In this document: positions 23,868 through 63,868 of the stretch, one piece after another
Layout: every line of letters starts with the position of its first letter
Position numbering within the stretch: position 1 is the first letter of the stretch
Assembly (NCBI GenBank): GCA_017428245.1
Contig: JAFRRF010000002.1
Coordinates: forward strand, 1 to 64,000
Reading direction: 5' to 3'
Length of the DNA: 64,000 bases
DNA from: Bacteroidales bacterium
GTDB taxonomy: Bacteria; Bacteroidota; Bacteroidia; Bacteroidales; UBA932
Program-made: the position numbers and the translations under genes
The notes under the pieces: model-generated
Seen by the model: the letters and a program-made list of their open reading frames with translations, nothing else
Told to the model about the DNA's origin: nothing
Database searches by the model: none

Positions 23868-24629
23868 TTACCAATTTTTCTCTTTCTGTTTCGATTTCAG
23901 GCGGGCAGCCTTTTCCTTCTTGACCTTGTCCTGGGTATCATTTTCCTGGGCCTGGATGGCCTGCAGCATCTGCTGGGCGGCCTGCGGCGTGATCTTGGGC
24001 TGCTGCCCCTGATTCCGCTGCTGATCCTGGTTCTGTTTCTGGTCCTGCTGCTGATCCTGATTCTGATTCTGGTCGTTATTCTGGTTCTGGTCCTGGTTCT
24101 GCTGCTGGTCCTGATTTTGATCGTTATTCTGATCCTGGTCCTGGTTCTGATCCTGGTTCTGGTCGTTCTGGCCGCCGCCGTTCTGCTGCTCGTTCTCGAG
24201 CATCTTCTGGGCGTAGGCCAGGTTGGCCTTGGTCTCCATATCGCCCGGATTGCGACGCAGGGCGTTCTTGTAGTCATCGATGGCTTCCTGCCACGAACGC
24301 TGTTTCAGCTTGGCGTTGCCCGCGTTGTGGAAGGCGTCTGCACCGTGCTTCCCCTTTGCCAGGGAATCGAGTCCCGCCTTGTAATAGCGGTCGGCTTCCT
24401 GGTAGTTCTCCTGCCGATAGTAGGTGTTGGCCAGGTTGTAGTCGGCCGTAACGGACGTCGAATCGGCCACCAGGGCCTTTTTGTATTGGATCTCGGCCTG
24501 CGGCCAGTGCTCCTTGCGGAACTCGCGGTTGCCACGGCGTACGCCGCTCCGCTCGCTTTGCGCGAAGCAGCAGGTCGCGCCGAGAAGGCAGGCCAGGAAA
24601 AGGCAGATATAGCGTTTCATACGTGTCAT
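23868..24629 (-). CDS. batC: BatC: TPR protein with Asn/Gln/Asp-rich tail
   Basis: Exported or periplasmic TPR protein of the Bat complex. The 253-residue protein has a signal peptide (MKRYICLFLACLLGATCCFAQ) and TPR repeats (about 30-135: AEIQYKKALVADSTSVTADYNLANTYYRQENYQEADRYY). About 70 residues made almost only of N, Q and D follow, and then a basic end (KKEKAARLKSKQKEKNW). The start at 24629 overlaps batB by ATGA; the Met three codons later would give the cleaner signal peptide. The repetitive tail is encoded by degenerate CAG/AAC/GAC-type codons at about 24000-24180 and may vary in length. Confidence 0.9.
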   Translation of the reverse strand: MTRMKRYICLFLACLLGATCCFAQSERSGVRRGNREFRKEHWPQAEIQYKKALVADSTSVTADYNLANTYYRQENYQEADRYYKAGLDSLAKGKHGADAFHNAGNAKLKQRSWQEAIDDYKNALRRNPGDMETKANLAYAQKMLENEQQNGGGQNDQNQDQNQDQDQNNDQNQDQQQNQDQNQNNDQNQNQDQQQDQKQNQDQQRNQGQQPKITPQAAQQMLQAIQAQENDTQDKVKKEKAARLKSKQKEKNW

Positions 24630-54903: not shown

Positions 54904-55368
54904 TCAAGCATTTCCAGAATCTGTACTGCTTTTTCGAGGTGTTTCCACGAGGATTACGGGGACGTTTTCGCCTTGTGCCAGATTGTCGAGCATCCTGATT
55001 ATATGTGCCTGTTGCTCTTCAGGGTCTTTGCAAAACTTGAAAGTTATCTTCTCCGCCCCACTGATGATGACCGCACGGACGAACTTCCTGTGAATGTGTC
55101 CTTGAACTTTCCCGACAATCACTGGACAATCGGGATTCTTCTGGTCGATGACGAAGTAGCGGGCGAAGGACTTGCCAGGCTGGACGAGGGATTCGATGGC
55201 GTCTTTCTGGAGATCAAGGGAGATGCAGAGTACGGACGTGTACCACTTCTGGAGCAGTTCAGACGTCATATGGGCGACGATGTTGCAGGCGCTCTCCTTG
55301 TCGGAGGCGCAGATGCGCTGGACTAAGCCGGGCGTGTAATTGGGGATCTGTTCGAGATACTCTTCCAT
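54904..55368 (-). CDS. Unrecognised 154-residue protein with WYL-type operator
   Basis: No family recognised. The cytosolic-looking protein starts MEEYLEQIPNYTPGLVQRI and has two alternating strand/helix stretches (WYTSVLCISLDLQKDAIESLVQPG, FARYFVIDQKNPDCPVIVGKVQGHIHRKFVRAVIISGAEKITFKF). A Thr/Ser-rich end follows. ATG at 55368 is chosen because the -7 box TACTTTTG (55389-55382) lies just upstream. The promoter contains a motif shared with the WYL regulator's own promoter (see 55379-55427), so it probably belongs to the same regulon and to the same accessory islet. Confidence 0.75.
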   Translation of the reverse strand: MEEYLEQIPNYTPGLVQRICASDKESACNIVAHMTSELLQKWYTSVLCISLDLQKDAIESLVQPGKSFARYFVIDQKNPDCPVIVGKVQGHIHRKFVRAVIISGAEKITFKFCKDPEEQQAHIIRMLDNLAQGENVPVILVETPRKSSTDSGNA

Positions 55369-55378
55369 AATCTTTTTT

Positions 55379-55427
55379 CGGCAAAAGTACTCCCAGCTTC
55401 GGCAAAAATATGGCAGAAGTAAAATAG
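55379..55427 (-). promoter_or_regulatory. Promoter with WYL-type operator motif
   Basis: -7 box TACTTTTG (55389-55382, minus). The plus strand carries CGGCAAAAGTAC and, 24 bases on, GGCAAAAATATGGCAGAAGTAA (split: GGCAAAAA, TATGGCAG, AAGTAA), matching the pair of sites at 58123-58171. Confidence 0.6.
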
Positions 55428-55492
55428 ACAAAAAATAGAGTTGCCGGGAGGACAACTCTAGGATCTTGGAAATATGCTCAAGTCAACTTCCT

Positions 55493-56386
55493 TTAGAGAC
55501 TATCAACAACAGATTTGAAGTCGTCTTGGGTGCAGAACGTGAGACTGAAAGAGGATGCCATTTCACGGATTTCTTCCTCACCACGACCATACTTCTTTTT
55601 CGCGTTGAAGTAGTGCAGGATGGCCCCATAAATGGATTTGAAATCTATTGCTTCGGCCATTCTTTTTTCATCATTAAAGAGGTCCAGTATTCGTTGTCTG
55701 TCGGTTGGATTATCTACGAATGCAAGGAGTTCTTTTGACGGACAATATGCCAAATAAATGAAGTTCACGGTCTTCTCATCACCGCCCAAGACCATGTTGG
55801 CAATACCGCAGAGATGACAAATCATTTGTTTGAAATCGAAATGGCCAGAATCCTTGTCTTCCCAAGAAAGATAAAGTGTATCCTTAGAACGATCGTAATC
55901 AAGTTTTCCGTCAAGTCTCGGGATAATGCCCTCTAATAGCATCCTATGACCCTTACGCAGCTCCGGTCTGGAGTAGTTATAAAACTCATGGCATTTGGCT
56001 TCTACGAAGACATTCTTTGATTTCAAGTAGCCGTCGAGATTGGCGTCGAATCCGCCCAGACCTGTTGGCAACTGTTTCTCATATTCAAAGCCATCAAACT
56101 TCTGACCTTGGCTATACATGAAACGGCTTGAAGAAGCATATGATGCCATTTTGGGTGGATATACTATGCCATTTCTCGGATACTCTTGCATTTCACCTCC
56201 CTTGCCATCATCAAACTGTGCTTTCACTTCTTCGGGCATCCTGTCCACATACTCCTGCCATTCTTGGTTAGTAAAATAATTGTGAAAAGTGTGGCCATTC
56301 ACAATGTAACCAGCACTCAGGTCACCGCCTTCCAACTTTTTTTTTGCCCGATCAAAAATCTCGGTAATTGACAATTCTTTTATCAT
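55493..56386 (-). CDS. Predicted PD-(D/E)XK nuclease-like protein (second of WYL operon)
   Basis: 297 residues, AT-rich. It contains MYSQGQKFDGFEYEKQLPTGLGGFDANLDGYLKSKNVFVEAKCHEFY in pieces, where an Asp in FDANLDGYL is followed 10-12 residues later by VEAKC. That D-x(n)-ExK arrangement, with a Glu in the preceding helix (FEYEKQL), is the PD-(D/E)XK nuclease core. It resembles the PGN_0703-type putative restriction endonucleases. C-terminal domain helical, unknown. It follows the first nuclease-like gene by 65 bases. Activity is inferred from motif only. Confidence 0.72.
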   Translation of the reverse strand: MIKELSITEIFDRAKKKLEGGDLSAGYIVNGHTFHNYFTNQEWQEYVDRMPEEVKAQFDDGKGGEMQEYPRNGIVYPPKMASYASSSRFMYSQGQKFDGFEYEKQLPTGLGGFDANLDGYLKSKNVFVEAKCHEFYNYSRPELRKGHRMLLEGIIPRLDGKLDYDRSKDTLYLSWEDKDSGHFDFKQMICHLCGIANMVLGGDEKTVNFIYLAYCPSKELLAFVDNPTDRQRILDLFNDEKRMAEAIDFKSIYGAILHYFNAKKKYGRGEEEIREMASSFSLTFCTQDDFKSVVDSL

Positions 56387-56451
56387 TGTTCTTCTTTATT
56401 TCTAACTCTCTGAATTATTAGACGCGAAGCGTATATTCAAAGCTATGACAG

Positions 56452-57192
56452 CTAATTATCCCAGTGTAATTCAATAAGTTTTCCACCATCCAATGAGTAC
56501 GTTTGTGATTCAGACTGTTTGTTTTCACTTGGTAAAACATGGCATATGTATTTGGCCTTACCCTGTTTTTCCAGTTTCGGGCTACTCTTCTTATTACCTT
56601 GTATTAGACTTTTAAAAGTATCTTTATCGGCAACCTCTAACAAGTGAACAAACACTCCTTGCTCTGCTTCCTTATTCAGTTTAAGAAAGTCTTTAGAGAA
56701 ATCTTTCTGACCAGGCATTGCAGCCTTAAACTCAATCCAATAGATTCTCTTTCCTTCTTCATTATGAATTGTGAGGTCAAAGTTCCCAGATGTCCCTTCT
56801 TGTTTTCCATTTTCATTTTTCTTCCCCAGCTCTGCTAATCTAGGATCTTTGTCTTTTGAAAAGACGTATCTGTAGTCTGTCGGCGTTTCTACGGAATAGA
56901 AACATGGGGCCATATCTTTGTATTTGTCGCATATCTTATTGAATTGCTCAACAAAAATGAACCGAAGTTCCTGCTCACTGACTCGAGTATTAACAGTCTG
57001 TTCCGTGTTTCCCTTTAGCTTGTCATCTTTATACAACCCACGGCCGTATCTCGGGAAAACCAGACGAGATGAGCTTCCTTTTACAAAGCCGCGGCCTTCT
57101 TTCTGTTTCCGATAAACATCATCTACTGCTTTGAAGGTCTCCTTGAAGACCTCGCACAATATTTCTTCAATAGGCTTAACTTTTTCACTCAT
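56452..57192 (-). CDS. Predicted PD-(D/E)XK nuclease-like protein (first of WYL operon)
   Basis: 246 residues, AT-rich and unlike the chromosome around it. A helix with Glu (SEQELRFIFVEQFNKICD) is followed by GTSGNFDLTIHNEEGKRIYWIEFKAAMPG, i.e. Asp in NFDLTI and the ExK in WIEFKA, the catalytic pattern of PD-(D/E)XK nucleases. Charged surface segments and a C-terminal beta end (YSLDGGKLIELHWDN) complete it. No known family name could be given. It overlaps the WYL gene by eight bases, so production is coupled to the regulator. Confidence 0.72.
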   Translation of the reverse strand: MSEKVKPIEEILCEVFKETFKAVDDVYRKQKEGRGFVKGSSSRLVFPRYGRGLYKDDKLKGNTEQTVNTRVSEQELRFIFVEQFNKICDKYKDMAPCFYSVETPTDYRYVFSKDKDPRLAELGKKNENGKQEGTSGNFDLTIHNEEGKRIYWIEFKAAMPGQKDFSKDFLKLNKEAEQGVFVHLLEVADKDTFKSLIQGNKKSSPKLEKQGKAKYICHVLPSENKQSESQTYSLDGGKLIELHWDN

Positions 57193-58093
57193 AGTTTAAT
57201 AAGGATTTTTTGAATAATTCATGAAGTTGGTCTCTCAAAACTGGCGGCTCCATCACTTCTACGTCATCCGCATAGTATAAGACATCGTGGATGAAATCAT
57301 AGTTGGGAGTCAGGTAGTACGAGAAGATTGAGTACTCGGCCGTCTTTTCGACCTCCTTCTGGCTAGAGTGTAGTGGCAGGGTGCGGAAGTAGTTGGCTTG
57401 ATGGGCCGTGGTCTTAATCTTGATGTGGGCGGGCTTGGCGTCGTCATATTGGAGGACTCCGTAGCGGGTGCTGAAGAAATCCCGGGCATCGAACGACTTT
57501 CGAACCTTAAAGAGTTTTTCAGAAATTGTTACGGAGTTCATCCGGTCTAATGCGAAGGAGTGCGGCTCCTTGTACCCGCCATTGTGGTCACGGGCGAAGA
57601 GGTACCAGCGGCGCTTGTATTCCTTGAGACAGTAGGGTTCCAGCAGAAAATCGCGGGGGACCTCCATTGTGAAGCCCTGATAGTTGACTTCCAGCATCCG
57701 CTCATCGCGAATCGCTCTGATAATGTCCGTGAGGAACTTGTGGCTGGAAGGCACATCTTCGAAGATAATCCTGTCTCTCATGCTTGCACTTTCGTTGAGG
57801 AGCGAGTTCAAGGTAAGTGCATCCAGCATCCAGGTGCGGATGCCGGTGCCACGCAGGTCTTCATCGTTTTCAATGCGATAGGTGTTGGTGCGACGGTCAC
57901 ACACGATGTCGATGCCGAAGATGTCGGCGATGGACGCGATGTGATTGGCGAAGGTTCGGGTTGCCAGTTCTTTTTCCTCATCATTGACGGAACTCCGCAT
58001 CCAAAGGTCTTTGATTTCGGCCAGCGTGAGCGGCCCGCGGCTCTGAAGTGTCTCCAGCAGCCAAATGTAAGATTTAAAATAGTTCTTTGCCAT
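57185..58093 (-). CDS. WYL-domain transcriptional regulator
   Basis: 302 residues: an N-terminal winged helix-turn-helix (about 1-85, SRGPLTLAEIKDLWMRS...ATRTFANHIASIADIFGIDIVCDRRTNTYRI) and a WYL domain (about 115-200) with FLLEPYCLKEYKRRWYLFARD, the RWYLFARD being the WYL stretch. A WCX-like extension with SRYGVLQYDDAKPAHIKIKT follows. ATG at 58093 is used; the -7 box TACCTTTG (58110-58103) rules out a longer form and leaves a leader of only a few bases. WYL proteins of this shape (BrxR, CapW) repress defence operons and sense nucleic acids; that role here is inference from the two nuclease-like genes that follow. Confidence 0.9.
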   Translation of the reverse strand: MAKNYFKSYIWLLETLQSRGPLTLAEIKDLWMRSSVNDEEKELATRTFANHIASIADIFGIDIVCDRRTNTYRIENDEDLRGTGIRTWMLDALTLNSLLNESASMRDRIIFEDVPSSHKFLTDIIRAIRDERMLEVNYQGFTMEVPRDFLLEPYCLKEYKRRWYLFARDHNGGYKEPHSFALDRMNSVTISEKLFKVRKSFDARDFFSTRYGVLQYDDAKPAHIKIKTTAHQANYFRTLPLHSSQKEVEKTAEYSIFSYYLTPNYDFIHDVLYYADDVEVMEPPVLRDQLHELFKKSLLNYE

Positions 58094-58102
58094 ATCTGAA
58101 CA

Positions 58103-58191
58103 CAAAGGTAATGATAGCTTCTGCAAAAAAGTGGCAGTATGAAAAATATTATTACTCTGCCACGTTTTTGCCGAGTCGGCGGTGATCTTTG
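58103..58191. promoter_or_regulatory. Divergent WYL promoter region with paired operator
   Basis: Minus -7 box TACCTTTG (58110-58103) for the WYL gene and plus GATCTTTG (58184-58191) for the secreted protein. Between them GCAAAAAAGTGGCAG (58123-58137) and its near complement CTGCCACGTTTTTGC (58157-58171) form an inverted pair separated by 19 bases. Both match the site at 55403. The arms cover the -33 positions of both promoters. Confidence 0.7.
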
Positions 58192-60551: not shown

Positions 60552-61038
60552 GTGAGCGAAAAAGGGGTTTTCGCTCACGGATTCTTCTTTCTGCGGCCGG
60601 CGGTGAGCAGAATAGGGCTTTCTGCTCACGAATCCTCCGTCTTGCAGTCGCTGGTGAGCGAAATGGGGCTTCCTGCTCACGCCGCCTTCTTTTTTCGGCC
60701 ATCGGTGAGTGAATCAGCGTCTTTCGCTCACGGCGTCATCGTTTCGTGGCCGCTGGTGAGCAGAACAGGGCTTTCTGCTCACGAAGTCCCCGTTATGCCG
60801 CTGCCGGTGAGCGAATGATGGCCTTTTGCTCACCGCAGCCTTGTCGTTCTGCTGTTGGTGAGCGAAATGGGGCCTCCTGCTCACGCCGCCTTCTATTATC
60901 GGCCATCGGTGAGTGAATCAGAGTCTTTCGCTCACGGCGACATCGTTTCGCGGCCGCTGGTGAGCAGAACAGGGCTTTCTGCTCACGAAGTCCCCGTTAT
61001 GCCGCTACCGGTGAGCGAATGATGGCCTTTTGCTCACC
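60552..61038. repeat. Array 1: ten 51-bp palindromic units
   Basis: Units begin at 60552, 60603, 60654, 60705, 60756, 60807, 60858, 60909, 60960 and 61011, exactly 51 bases apart. Each has a 28-base imperfect hairpin of the form GTGAGCnGAA...TTCnGCTCAC and a 23-base variable part ending near CCGCTG or CCATCG. Units 3-6 recur as 7-10 with few changes, a 204-bp duplication. One frame on each strand reads 17-residue repeats VSxxxxxAH, but stop codons occur. The last unit contains the stop codon of the transposase gene. It fills the 585-base gap after glnS. Confidence 0.95.
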
Positions 61039-62035
61039 GGGTAGGTTCTATCGAAGGGAAAAGCTGTTGAACGATGTCTTTGGGCAGCCCCAGGACGCGG
61101 CGGATCTGCTGAGAAGTTGCGTAATAGTCCGTACGCAGGATCCGGGCAATGGCCATCTTGGCATCGGAGGGCAGTAAGGAGAGCTGTTTTACTTTAAAGT
61201 CACGCCATCCCAACATTCTGGCGACGGGATAGATTTCCTCGTCGGTCAAAACAATAGTATCTCCCAATCGTTTTGACACTTCGCTATAAGCTTCGAAGTT
61301 TCGGGTAAGCAGATAGAAATACTGATGTGCGTCGCGGAACATCCGCTCACCGTCTCTGACTCTGGCGTAACTGTCGGGCAGGATCATCCCCTGTCCGTAC
61401 CGATAAGATTCTGGCATTTCGAAGAGACGCTTGCGACACAACGACCTTTTGGTTCGAAAAGGAATATCCCGATAGGGAATCCCGGGATCAGAAAAATGCG
61501 ATTGATTGAAATAAGCCGATCCGCTGCCCCAAGGGTATGAGAAAGGAGTGCTGGAAGGAGTGACCAGATATCCGTTTCTGTTGATATATACGATTTCGTT
61601 GCGCATCATTTCGAGCGATGAGATCTCGATAGGATTATCGCATCGGAAATTCATGAGATTCAAAAAACGGCCCTTGTCGGCACTGTATTTTTCAAGCCGG
61701 TAAGTGAAGCATTCCAAATAGGCGACACATTGACTTTGGGTCCCTCCTCCCAGCGTGTGGATATGGTTCCCCATAATCTGGTCGGTGAAAATGGTCAAAC
61801 CGCTTTCTGCGGCGCTGATGGCACTGTTTGAAACGGCAAACCTGAAGTCCTCGTTTTCAATGAAAAGTGTTTCTGTCAGATTCCCGGGTGTGCAGATGTG
61901 CCAGAGCGGGCCGTATTGGTTCCGGATCTCATAGAAATGCCTTTCACAAAGTCTCTCTTTCTCGCTGAATGAGTAAGGTTGAAAGCTGGCCCTGTCGCCT
62001 GACCACGGCCCCGAATGTCCATCTGTTCCGTTCAT
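61034..62035 (-). CDS. RAYT-like Y1/HUH transposase
   Basis: Single-strand DNA nicking/rejoining enzyme of the IS200/REP-associated (TnpA-REP) type, by motif. In the 333-residue protein the strand before the active site reads LTIFTDQIMGNHIHTLGGG with HUH at His91-Ile-His93. After a helix the catalytic tyrosine lies in EIVYINRNGYLVTPSSTPFSYPWGSGSAYF (Tyr150); its RNG..PFSYPW pattern is the RAYT hallmark. The C-terminal 170 residues are helical, ending in a helix-turn-helix-like part. Promoter TATCTTTG at 62081-62074. Its stop TGA lies within unit 10 of array 1, which suggests the array grew from or into this gene. No transposon ends of its own were found. Confidence 0.85.
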   Translation of the reverse strand: MNGTDGHSGPWSGDRASFQPYSFSEKERLCERHFYEIRNQYGPLWHICTPGNLTETLFIENEDFRFAVSNSAISAAESGLTIFTDQIMGNHIHTLGGGTQSQCVAYLECFTYRLEKYSADKGRFLNLMNFRCDNPIEISSLEMMRNEIVYINRNGYLVTPSSTPFSYPWGSGSAYFNQSHFSDPGIPYRDIPFRTKRSLCRKRLFEMPESYRYGQGMILPDSYARVRDGERMFRDAHQYFYLLTRNFEAYSEVSKRLGDTIVLTDEEIYPVARMLGWRDFKVKQLSLLPSDAKMAIARILRTDYYATSQQIRRVLGLPKDIVQQLFPSIEPTR

Positions 62036-62073
62036 CGCAAAATCTATCGCCTCTTTTGGGGCCAATGTGACGA

Positions 62074-62081
62074 CAAAGATA
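62074..62081 (-). promoter_or_regulatory. -7 box of the RAYT-like gene
   Basis: TATCTTTG on the minus strand, 39 bases before the chosen ATG; this rules out the in-frame TTG at 62065. The region also holds a hairpin GCCGGA-AATG-TCCGGC at 62092-62107 that may end the mqnC transcript. Confidence 0.55.
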
Positions 62082-62125
62082 GGATGACATCGCCGGAAAT
62101 GTCCGGCAAAAAAGCAAAATAAAAG

Positions 62126-63355
62126 TTAAAAAACGGATAATCGGGGCTGATAAAGCTGGTCGCGGAGCCAGGGTGTGAAGCCCGTGGATGCGATAGCCTC
62201 GCGCATCATCCGAACGGCCGCAGGACACGCGAGTCCGCCGCCCTGCCTGTACCGTCCGGGCTGTTCTTCTCGTCCGTCTCGTCCGTCTCGTTCGTCCTGC
62301 TCGTTTCGCCCGTCCTGCCCGACCCGCCCAGGCATCTCATCGAGCGTATGATGCGCCCCTGCCGCTGATACCACGTTTTCTTCGATCATTATGGAACCCA
62401 TATCATCGGCTCCGGCATGTAAAGCCCGTAGTCCGGTGGGAAGACCGACAGTCAGCCAGGAGGCTTGGATGTGATCGACATTGTCGAGTACCAGCCGGGC
62501 GATGGCTACAGTACGGAGGAATTCTTCGTCGGGCGTCCAGCGGCGGGGTTCGCCCGGAAGGGCGATTCCGCCGGGGAGCCGGCCGGCGTCGGCCAGCCGC
62601 TGAAGTTCGGTGCCGCTGAGTTGCATCGGCCAGCAGATGAAGGCACGGAACCCGGGGGTACCTGTCGGACGCGCATCCTGCAGTGTGCGCAGCGCCAGAA
62701 GGTGGTCGATGCGCTCTCCCAGCGTCTCGATATGGCCATATACCATCGTAGCCGTCGTACTCATCCCAAGCGCGTGAGCCTCCCGCATCACGTCGAGCCA
62801 CTGCCGGGCCGTAGGCTTGGCCGGCGACAAGAATCGGCGGACACGGTCGGAGAGGATTTCGGCGCCGGCACCGGGCAGCGTGTCGAGCCCGGCTACCTGC
62901 AGGCGCTGCAGCACTTCGCGGTACGACAGGCGGCTGATACGGGCGATGTGGGCAATTTCCGGCGGACCGAGCGCGTTGAGTCGAAGTGTAGGTTCAGCTT
63001 CTTTCAACTGCCGGAAGAGAGTCTCATACCACTCGATGCCGTAGCGGGGATGCAGCCCGCCCTGCAGCAGGAGCTGGTCGCCGCCGAGTGTTTTCAGTTC
63101 AGCGATTTTCGGCAGATAGTCTTCGAAAGACAGGGTATAAGCCTTTTCCGGCTCGTCGGGCCGGCAGTGGAAATTGCAGAATTTGCAGCCGGAAAGACAG
63201 ACGTTGGTGTAGTTGACGTTGCGGTCGATCTGATAGCTGACGCGTTGCTCGGGGACGTGCGCATAGCGGGCGGCCTGCGCCTGTCCGCAGAGTTCGTCGA
63301 GCGGTGCGTCGCGATAGAGCGACAGGGCTTCGTCTTTGTCCAAACGTTTCATCAC
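62126..63355 (-). CDS. mqnC: Cyclic dehypoxanthinyl futalosine synthase (menaquinone pathway)
   Basis: Radical-SAM enzyme that cyclises dehypoxanthinyl futalosine in the futalosine route to menaquinone. The 409-residue protein has DRNVNYTNVCLSGCKFCNFHC (cluster Cys in CLSGCKFC, written here in pieces), LLQGGLHP, and the MqnC signature ASWLTVGLPTGLRALHAGADDMGSIMIEENVVSAAGA. Between this and the end (AAVRMMREAIASTGFTPWLRDQLY) lies an inserted, charged, repetitive stretch from EMPGRVGQDGRNEQDERDG on, encoded by a REP-like palindrome and short repeats. MqnE is the alternative, but the MIEENVVSAAG motif favours MqnC. Confidence 0.9.
   Translation of the reverse strand: MMKRLDKDEALSLYRDAPLDELCGQAQAARYAHVPEQRVSYQIDRNVNYTNVCLSGCKFCNFHCRPDEPEKAYTLSFEDYLPKIAELKTLGGDQLLLQGGLHPRYGIEWYETLFRQLKEAEPTLRLNALGPPEIAHIARISRLSYREVLQRLQVAGLDTLPGAGAEILSDRVRRFLSPAKPTARQWLDVMREAHALGMSTTATMVYGHIETLGERIDHLLALRTLQDARPTGTPGFRAFICWPMQLSGTELQRLADAGRLPGGIALPGEPRRWTPDEEFLRTVAIARLVLDNVDHIQASWLTVGLPTGLRALHAGADDMGSIMIEENVVSAAGAHHTLDEMPGRVGQDGRNEQDERDGRDGREEQPGRYRQGGGLACPAAVRMMREAIASTGFTPWLRDQLYQPRLSVF
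62311..62342. repeat. REP-like palindrome, degenerate copy in mqnC
   Basis: Minus strand GATGCCTGGGCGGGTCGGGCA followed by GGACG in parts; read in frame as EMPGRVGQD, close to the MPGQAGQD of rimO. Short CGTCC(G/T)-type repeats follow at about 62270-62310. Confidence 0.55.
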
Positions 63356-63432
63356 AGCTATTAAACGGAATTGCTAATATCGTCAAAAAAAACAGGATTC
63401 ACAAGTCTGCGGCCTCGGATTGCCGAAATCGG

Positions 63433-63868
63433 GTGAGCGAAAGACGCTGTCTCGCTCACCACTAGCTGAAAAAGCAGGGTTCCGTGAGTAGGGAATCCTT
63501 TTTCGCTCACGAGTGACAGAAAAAGACGGGTATGGTGAGCAGAAGGCCGCGAGTTGCTCACCGCTGACAGCGAGAATGGGTTTTCGTGAGCAGAAAGCTC
63601 TGATTTGCTCACCATCGGCTGAAAAACGAATGTCCCGTGAGCGAAAAGCCCCATTTCGCTCACCATCGACCGAATAACGGGGACTTCGTGAGCGGAAAGC
63701 CCCGTTCTGCTCACCACTGGCCGAATAACTGAGGCCTCGTGAGCAGGCGACCCCATTTCACTCACGAGTGGCTAAAAAAGGCGGGTGCGGTGAGCAAGAA
63801 GCCACCATTTGCTTACCACCAGCTGAATAACAAGGGCTTTGTGAACGGTAGCGTCCGTCGGCTCACGG
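63433..63868. repeat. Array 2: nine 51-bp palindromic units
   Basis: Units begin at 63433, 63484, 63535, 63586, 63637, 63688, 63739, 63790 and 63841, exactly 51 bases apart, of the same form as array 1 but with more varied sequences; the last two are decaying. Read on the minus strand, most units are in one open frame of 17-residue repeats VSExGxxAHxxxx (about 63361-63765). It covers the region upstream of mqnC, in which no other gene is seen. Confidence 0.93.

Follow-up and report, generated by a model that had tools for sequence, protein, structure and literature searches.

Y1 enzymes of the HUH (histidine-hydrophobic-histidine) type, among them TnpAREP and the transposases of the IS200/IS605 family, cut single-stranded DNA beside a hairpin by means of a tyrosine, and the way in which repetitive extragenic palindromic (REP) sequences spread is presented as unsolved (PMC8266576). 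The REPs of Escherichia coli are characterized by inverted pairs, a GTAG motif and a bulge (PMC6006769, PMC8266576). For Bacteroidetes, a survey of such enzymes describes a subclass 2.6 with proteins of 179 aa, a YIH[QN]NP motif and a WQ motif (PMC6006769). The present analysis concerns a stretch of 64,000 nucleotides, hereafter the window, from a Bacteroidales bacterium (GCA_017428245.1, contig JAFRRF010000002.1, positions 1 to 64,000), in which a gene resembling those of REP-associated tyrosine transposases (RAYTs) lies between two arrays of palindromes repeated every 51 base pairs (bp).

Herein, this locus is read as part of an undescribed, outlying RAYT-like lineage with fixed-pitch, head-to-tail hairpin arrays. 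With a probability of roughly 0.67, the protein is an enzyme with the predicted fold of RAYTs, and the 51-base arrays around its gene are its likely substrate: it would bind the folded single strand, nick it between hairpins, in the links, and so multiply or move the repeats in whole units of 51 or 102 bases. In uncultured gut and rumen Bacteroidales, the enzymes of this family, predicted to cut single-stranded DNA, likely multiply in whole units the hairpin repeats that flank many of their genes.

The pitch is a family-wide property, and the letters of the palindrome change by lineage. Among 92 loci of family genes, a self-similar lag (three or more windows of sequence) was found in 58, the top lag being 51 in 26 loci, 102 in seven, 52 in three, 104 and 50 in two each, 153 and 154 in one each, and further values in 16; two of 20 control pieces of the window (3 kb each) showed a lag, of 30 and 48. 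A separately obtained set, overlapping the first in origin, comprised the best 80 of 166 loci from named genomes, titled as metagenome-assembled genomes of uncultured Bacteroidales, Bacteroidia or Rikenellaceae, with two Candidatus Cryptobacteroides. When pairs of similar hairpins were counted at all lags from 25 to 125, the DNA within 800 bp of the gene (121 kb) yielded lag 51 152 times, 52 18 times, 50 five times and 102 66 times, with at most three counts for any other lag. In a distal control more than 1.7 kb from the gene (175 kb), lag 51 occurred three times and lags 52, 72, 102 and 103 once each, so that 175 pairs at 50-52 bp near the gene stand against 4 in the larger control. A pair at 50-53 bp was present on at least one side at 57 of the 80 loci and, where 400 bp were available on both sides, at 53 of 72, including 27 with pairs on both. 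Tandem repeats of other lengths adjoin the gene at two loci of relatives at 26-29% identity, namely 74 bp at L115 (from about 1022) and 71 bp at L118 (from about 1086); because of these lengths, other sublineages may have other pitches.

The palindromes beside these genes include the types GTGAGC, TCCTCA, TTGTTCC, GTCCACA, AAAAGCACAAAA, CCGTCCATG and GGGAGCA, besides others. Across 52 loci, hairpin identity falls with protein identity, from 0.90 (proteins 70% identical or more) through 0.62 (55-70%) to 0.46-0.51 (lower values), and an inner AAAA/TTTT pair and a GGCC-like loop are kept in the hairpin consensus. First links carried at least four consecutive A/T in mid-link at 40 of 52 loci (20.8 by shuffle). 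GT[AG]G at the hairpin foot was not enriched: of 159 doublets, 8 carried it on the strand of the gene and 9 on the opposite strand, against 15.8 expected by shuffle. At 25 loci with links on both sides, direct order matched better in 20 and inverted order in four, with one tie, the margin at some loci being only one to three bases; at five loci (L051, L054, L039, L107 and L110) two or three hairpins in similar order were seen by eye on both sides of the gene. In the window itself the arrays are mutually inverted, unlike the direct order at most compared loci. The inverted REP pairs of REPINs (REP doublets forming hairpins) and BIMEs (bacterial interspersed mosaic elements) were not found, the units being direct at lag 51 or 102. 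A preliminary description of this DNA, made from its sequence alone, had proposed a Bacteroidetes RAYT-like enzyme living together with palindrome arrays at a spacing unlike that of REPINs; both proposals are supported, and the reading is widened to a pitch kept throughout the family while the palindromes change.

The joint occurrence of gene and arrays in relatives, suggested in that description as a check, was borne out in 299 family genomes drawn evenly from a larger group. Relatives of the protein at E <= 1e-5 occur in 157 of them, and orthologs of at least 56% identity in six (the window's own genome G000, G067, G200, G268, G114 and G234), the next best reaching 49% and 48%. With an array defined as two consecutive GTGAGC units exactly 51 bp apart, tandem units were found in six genomes, that is, in five of the six with such an ortholog and in one of the 293 without (Fisher p 1.9e-9, indicative only because the genomes share ancestry). 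Forward matches numbered 20 in G000, 8 in G067, 6 in G200, 3 in G268, 15 in G114 and 1 in G080. In another genome, G052, two systems meet at one place: immediately after a two-unit GTGAGC array, at 1835 of L129, stands a hairpin of the TCCTCA type, which is the type flanking the family gene of that same genome (L053).

Within the window (Table 1), array 1 occupies the whole space between the convergent glnS and RAYT-like genes, its hairpin starts running from 60552 to 61011 in steps of 51 bases throughout, and its four-unit block is a whole-unit duplication. In array 2, starts from 63433 to 63790 keep exactly 51 and a degenerate ninth unit follows at about 63841-63866, so that the earlier count of 10 and 9 units at an exact period holds for array 1 and for eight units of array 2. 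The arrays are inverted relative to each other (mean link identity 0.22 direct vs 0.51 inverted), which the preliminary description had overlooked. It had correctly placed the stop codon of the transposase inside the last unit of array 1, as the coordinates show, and the arrays do flank the enzyme, but not the enzyme alone, since a second gene, here called mqnE, shares the interval. All 13 exact matches to GTGAGC-N10..24-GCTCAC in the window lie inside the two arrays, compared with a mean of 0.09 and a maximum of 2 in 100 shuffled windows. Furthermore, four of five tested hairpins folded as DNA better than all 200 shuffles, the fifth being equalled or surpassed by 6 of 200, and two links folded no better than their own shuffles.

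Table 1. Coordinates of the arrays, genes and predicted catalytic residues in the window.
Feature	Coordinates	Strand	Remark
Array 1: 10 hairpins, 27 bp each, 24-bp links, head to tail	60552..61037	+	
Four-unit block (204 bp) inside array 1, 1.9 copies, 96% match	60652..61039	+	
RAYT-like gene, 333 aa from ATG	61034..62035	-	stop codon within final hairpin of array 1
Predicted catalytic Tyr, residue 160 (343-aa frame) / 150 (from ATG), motif YINRNG	61586..61588	-	
HUH motif His-Ile-His, residues 101-103 (343-aa frame) / 91-93 (from ATG)	61757..61765	-	both His invariant in the 59-row alignment
mqnE-like radical SAM gene (CofH/MqnC-type), between arrays 1 and 2	62126..63355	-	
Array 2: 8 hairpins, pitch exactly 51 bp, followed by a degenerate ninth	63433..63866	-	

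The longer open reading frame (ORF) of the RAYT-like gene encodes 343 aa from a TTG start at 62065, ten codons upstream of the ATG. In that numbering H101, H103, Y160 and N164 are invariant in a 59-row alignment; the first three are the His91, His93 and Tyr150 singled out previously, and a catalytic role of Tyr160 is predicted by analogy with the Y1 family. The protein is predicted to have a Y1 HUH fold, that of RAYTs, with 4er8 (E. coli RAYT) as the best fold match. Instead of the YIxxNP motif of the described class 2 subclasses, the protein has YINRNG, and the alignment shows no conserved W between HUH and Tyr; the family is therefore placed in no described subclass. The own genome contains four relatives of the protein, only 21-35% identical, so that the near-identical genomic copies that are a hallmark of IS200/IS605 were not found.

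In the window's genome (2.37 Mb, 62 contigs), six contigs carry a total of seven arrays with 27 exact hairpins. When up to two arm mismatches were allowed, 45 hairpins fell into chains of 7, 10, 4, 3, 3 and 18, where the chain of 18 combines the two arrays of the window. As in RAYTs, the gene is flanked by palindromes that recur in the genome, a comparison made for the GTGAGC type. As read, the own-genome arrays start and finish with a hairpin. Links compared across 21 pairs of these arrays gave a mean identity of 0.46 in the better orientation and 0.14 to 0.37 in the other; because links of different arrays match better in one orientation, link and hairpin appear to have spread together, less clearly so for the array C11. 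In C11, second-next links are 0.94 identical and neighbours 0.33, and in C9 the values are 0.86 and 0.70; a 102-bp pair has therefore been a duplication unit there. About 125 to 135 bp separate the ends of two own-genome arrays from tRNA genes (L022 4504-4577 and L025 4216-4289; Ala and His).

Comparison of sites between species adds a historical dimension. The glnS site was matched in 37 of 40 genus genomes, of which 30 loci were read. Four genomes (G000, G067, G200 and G268) share the arrangement glnS, array, RAYT-like gene and mqnE facing glnS, array, with 8/10, 11/4, 4/7 and 4/4 units on the mqnE side and the glnS side, respectively, the array of four in G200 beginning about 100 bp from a contig end. 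Among the loci returned that lack the RAYT-like gene and have mqnE in reach, nine of ten carry mqnE after glnS in the same direction, at 3 to 334 bp (tblastn ends). Because relatives without the gene mostly keep this order, the RAYT-like gene and arrays were probably inserted at glnS and the segment then inverted between the inverted arrays. This history is qualified by the tenth locus, G247, where mqnE is also turned and both the RAYT-like gene and the arrays are absent. In that locus (L216), in which no relative of the window gene was found, a hairpin pair GACGTGAAA...TTTCACGTC with members at 1146 and 1218, 72 bp apart, lies between glnS and the turned mqnE; the glnS site may attract such elements.

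For the C33 site, the gene next to the array has matches in 36 of 40 genomes, of which 30 loci were inspected. The convergent gap of G000 spans 359 bp and contains three units. Nine other loci with the same convergent pair contain no hairpins of the GTGAGC type, and the gap there measures -19 to 43 bp in eight and 1336 bp in the ninth. The C26 site (matches in 20 of 40 genomes, each of the 20 loci inspected) has an array common to G000 (4 units) and G067 (7 units), whose outer flanks and first unit align by eye and whose inner units differ; eight other convergent loci, with gaps of 3 to 578 bp, have none. Orthologous arrays thus differ in unit number between species, and such differences, together with arrays at gene pairs that are empty in relatives, provide natural before-and-after comparisons.

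We infer that the protein itself does this work, acting on single strands, cutting at a particular position and setting the pitch; such an enzyme would both nick and amplify the units. A hairpin or hairpin pair would form on transiently single-stranded DNA, for instance the lagging-strand template, and the tyrosine would cut near the A/T tract of the link, a position that is a guess from the conservation of that tract. A unit-length single strand would then be excised and rejoined at another link, which would keep the register, and homologous exchange between units would subsequently homogenise the arrays. Each enzyme would recognise the hairpin of its own lineage, and a link cut at a set distance would release and join whole units. 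More tentatively, and with considerable doubt, this HUH lineage may possess a built-in 51-base ruler, cutting the links on both sides of a hairpin, releasing pieces of unit length and joining them head to tail. It would thereby build satellite-like arrays of any palindrome with which it has co-evolved, and may have moved its own gene likewise, since a number of genes have the same two or three hairpins, directly ordered, on either side. As many enzyme-palindrome pairs share one geometry and the letters turn over, hairpin specificity and pitch would be separable.

Several observations weigh against the main reading of the enzyme and its arrays. No repeat lag was found at 34 of the 92 loci, and the detector found no hairpin pair of the stated spacing at 23 of the 80. 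Over all pairs of the 52 loci, protein and palindrome are weakly correlated (Spearman 0.15, permutation p 0.0075), which is what rapid turnover of the palindrome would produce. G234 has a 56% ortholog and no exact tandem pair; one unit-like 27-mer adjoins its gene, and a looser, noisy pattern for single hairpins, which is also found in 119 of the 299 genomes, occurs five times. Three genomes have such units in the absence of a close ortholog: G080 a two-unit array, G052 another that includes mismatches and lies close to the end of a contig, and G231 a lone hairpin. These may be remnants or have arisen by chance. At the level of sequence, homology to RAYTs is weak: the query matches neither PF01797 (Y1_Tnp) nor NF047646. 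Of the 59 aligned proteins, 16 match Y1_Tnp weakly (best E 0.0011) and 13 match NF047646 (best E 0.0086). Against PDB sequences, the family profile placed a designed repeat protein at the top (E 3e-6, no single stretch passing) and the ISDra2 transposase second (E 0.032). Profile comparison with E. coli RayT failed both with one sequence (E 0.027, off register) and with 14 (E 0.26), the HUH motifs being aligned in the latter. In addition, local expansion could be plain unequal exchange without any enzyme. Taken further, replication slippage and unequal homologous exchange would drive array size and the protein would be a mere binder or a long-ago seeder. This account fits the higher identity within than between own-genome arrays (hairpins in five of seven; links in five of seven, one more tied), and both the 96% four-unit block and the 102-bp alternation in C11 and C9 resemble local duplication. 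It leaves unexplained why unlike palindromes stand at 51 (50-52) bp beside different family members, why arrays occur at gene pairs that are empty in relatives and why arrays are tied to the gene, and is therefore regarded as rather unlikely.

Considerably less probable is that the arrays are regulatory or architectural sites, such as bidirectional terminators, mRNA stabilisers, or nucleoid or gyrase sites, with a pitch imposed by a host protein. The own-genome arrays do lie between long ORFs, several at convergent 3' ends, and REPs are credited with such roles (PMC8266576, PMC2817692). Against this, relatives with the same convergent pair are mostly without arrays at the two gene pairs compared, one site has a separate GC hairpin and T run after the array, and the palindrome varies with the neighbouring enzyme; a host role of the arrays would be secondary. 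The 51-base period also equals 17 codons, and several arrays are crossed by open frames of 80 to 215 codons, but stops in that reading in several own arrays, and pitches of 50 or 52 in other lineages, which are no multiple of three, make array-encoded repeat peptides scarcely credible. Equally improbable is an array of the CRISPR (clustered regularly interspaced short palindromic repeats) kind, with palindromic repeats and 24-base spacers: the palindromes are regularly spaced, but the 24-base links recur within and between arrays instead of being unique, and, of five proteins of the window compared with PADLOC models, a WYL regulator gave the sole match.

Elsewhere in the window, two features were observed. 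On the minus strand of 54904-58126, ORFs 54904-55455, 55493-56386 and 56452-57192, which have no Pfam or PADLOC matches, follow a WYL/WCX-domain regulator (57185-58126); as an impression only, the layout recalls a defence or nucleic-acid-processing cluster. An imperfect tandem repeat at 24021-24164, with units of 6 to 48 bp (CTGGTT/CTGATT), is possibly a low-complexity coding repeat.

Altogether, RAYT-like systems probably extend further in gut Bacteroidales than has been estimated, since relatives occur in more than half of the genomes sampled and, with so few and such weak Y1_Tnp matches in the alignment, searches led by that profile would probably miss most of these proteins. Among the papers listed in searches of the open-access literature, none was seen to describe a RAYT-like gene of Bacteroidales together with hairpin arrays repeated head to tail every 51 bp. 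The TnpAY1 enzymes of Bacteroidetes subclass 2.6 (Bertels group 5) and subclass 2.4 belong to the same phylum; their survey began from Pfam Y1_Tnp matches, of which the window query gives none, and a fixed pitch is not mentioned in the parts of it consulted (PMC6006769). According to the same survey, the IS200/IS605 elements IS608 and ISDra2 have a transposase of 152 aa and intragenomic copies that are 99% identical, in contrast to the divergent own-genome relatives found here. In Pseudomonas fluorescens SBW25, REPINs are likewise short palindromes thought to be spread by a RAYT, and evenly spaced tandem arrays occur; these REPINs are inverted pairs and the commonest inter-REP spacings, 71 and 110 bp, follow the REP group (PMC3116915), whereas one pitch is common to unlike palindromes in the window family. 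From the described RAYT/REP systems in general, the family differs in its lack of a GTAG foot, its direct instead of inverted repeats and its YIxxNG instead of YIxxNP; classes 2.6 and 3 are also noted to be without GT[AG]G (PMC6006769). A partial likeness is to the E. coli RAYT/TnpAREP (group 2, subclass 2.2) with BIME-2, where the gene likewise adjoins palindrome arrays and copies occur elsewhere in the genome. The E. coli protein has 165 aa and YIxxNP, compared with about 330 aa, YINRNG and a C-terminal extension in the window protein. In E. coli K-12, rayT is followed by two copies of a 101-bp direct repeat, each with two REP hairpins, but these are inverted pairs (PMC6006769); because this arrangement also gives about 50 bp per hairpin, the pitch may, by analogy, be an older trait of RAYT geometry.

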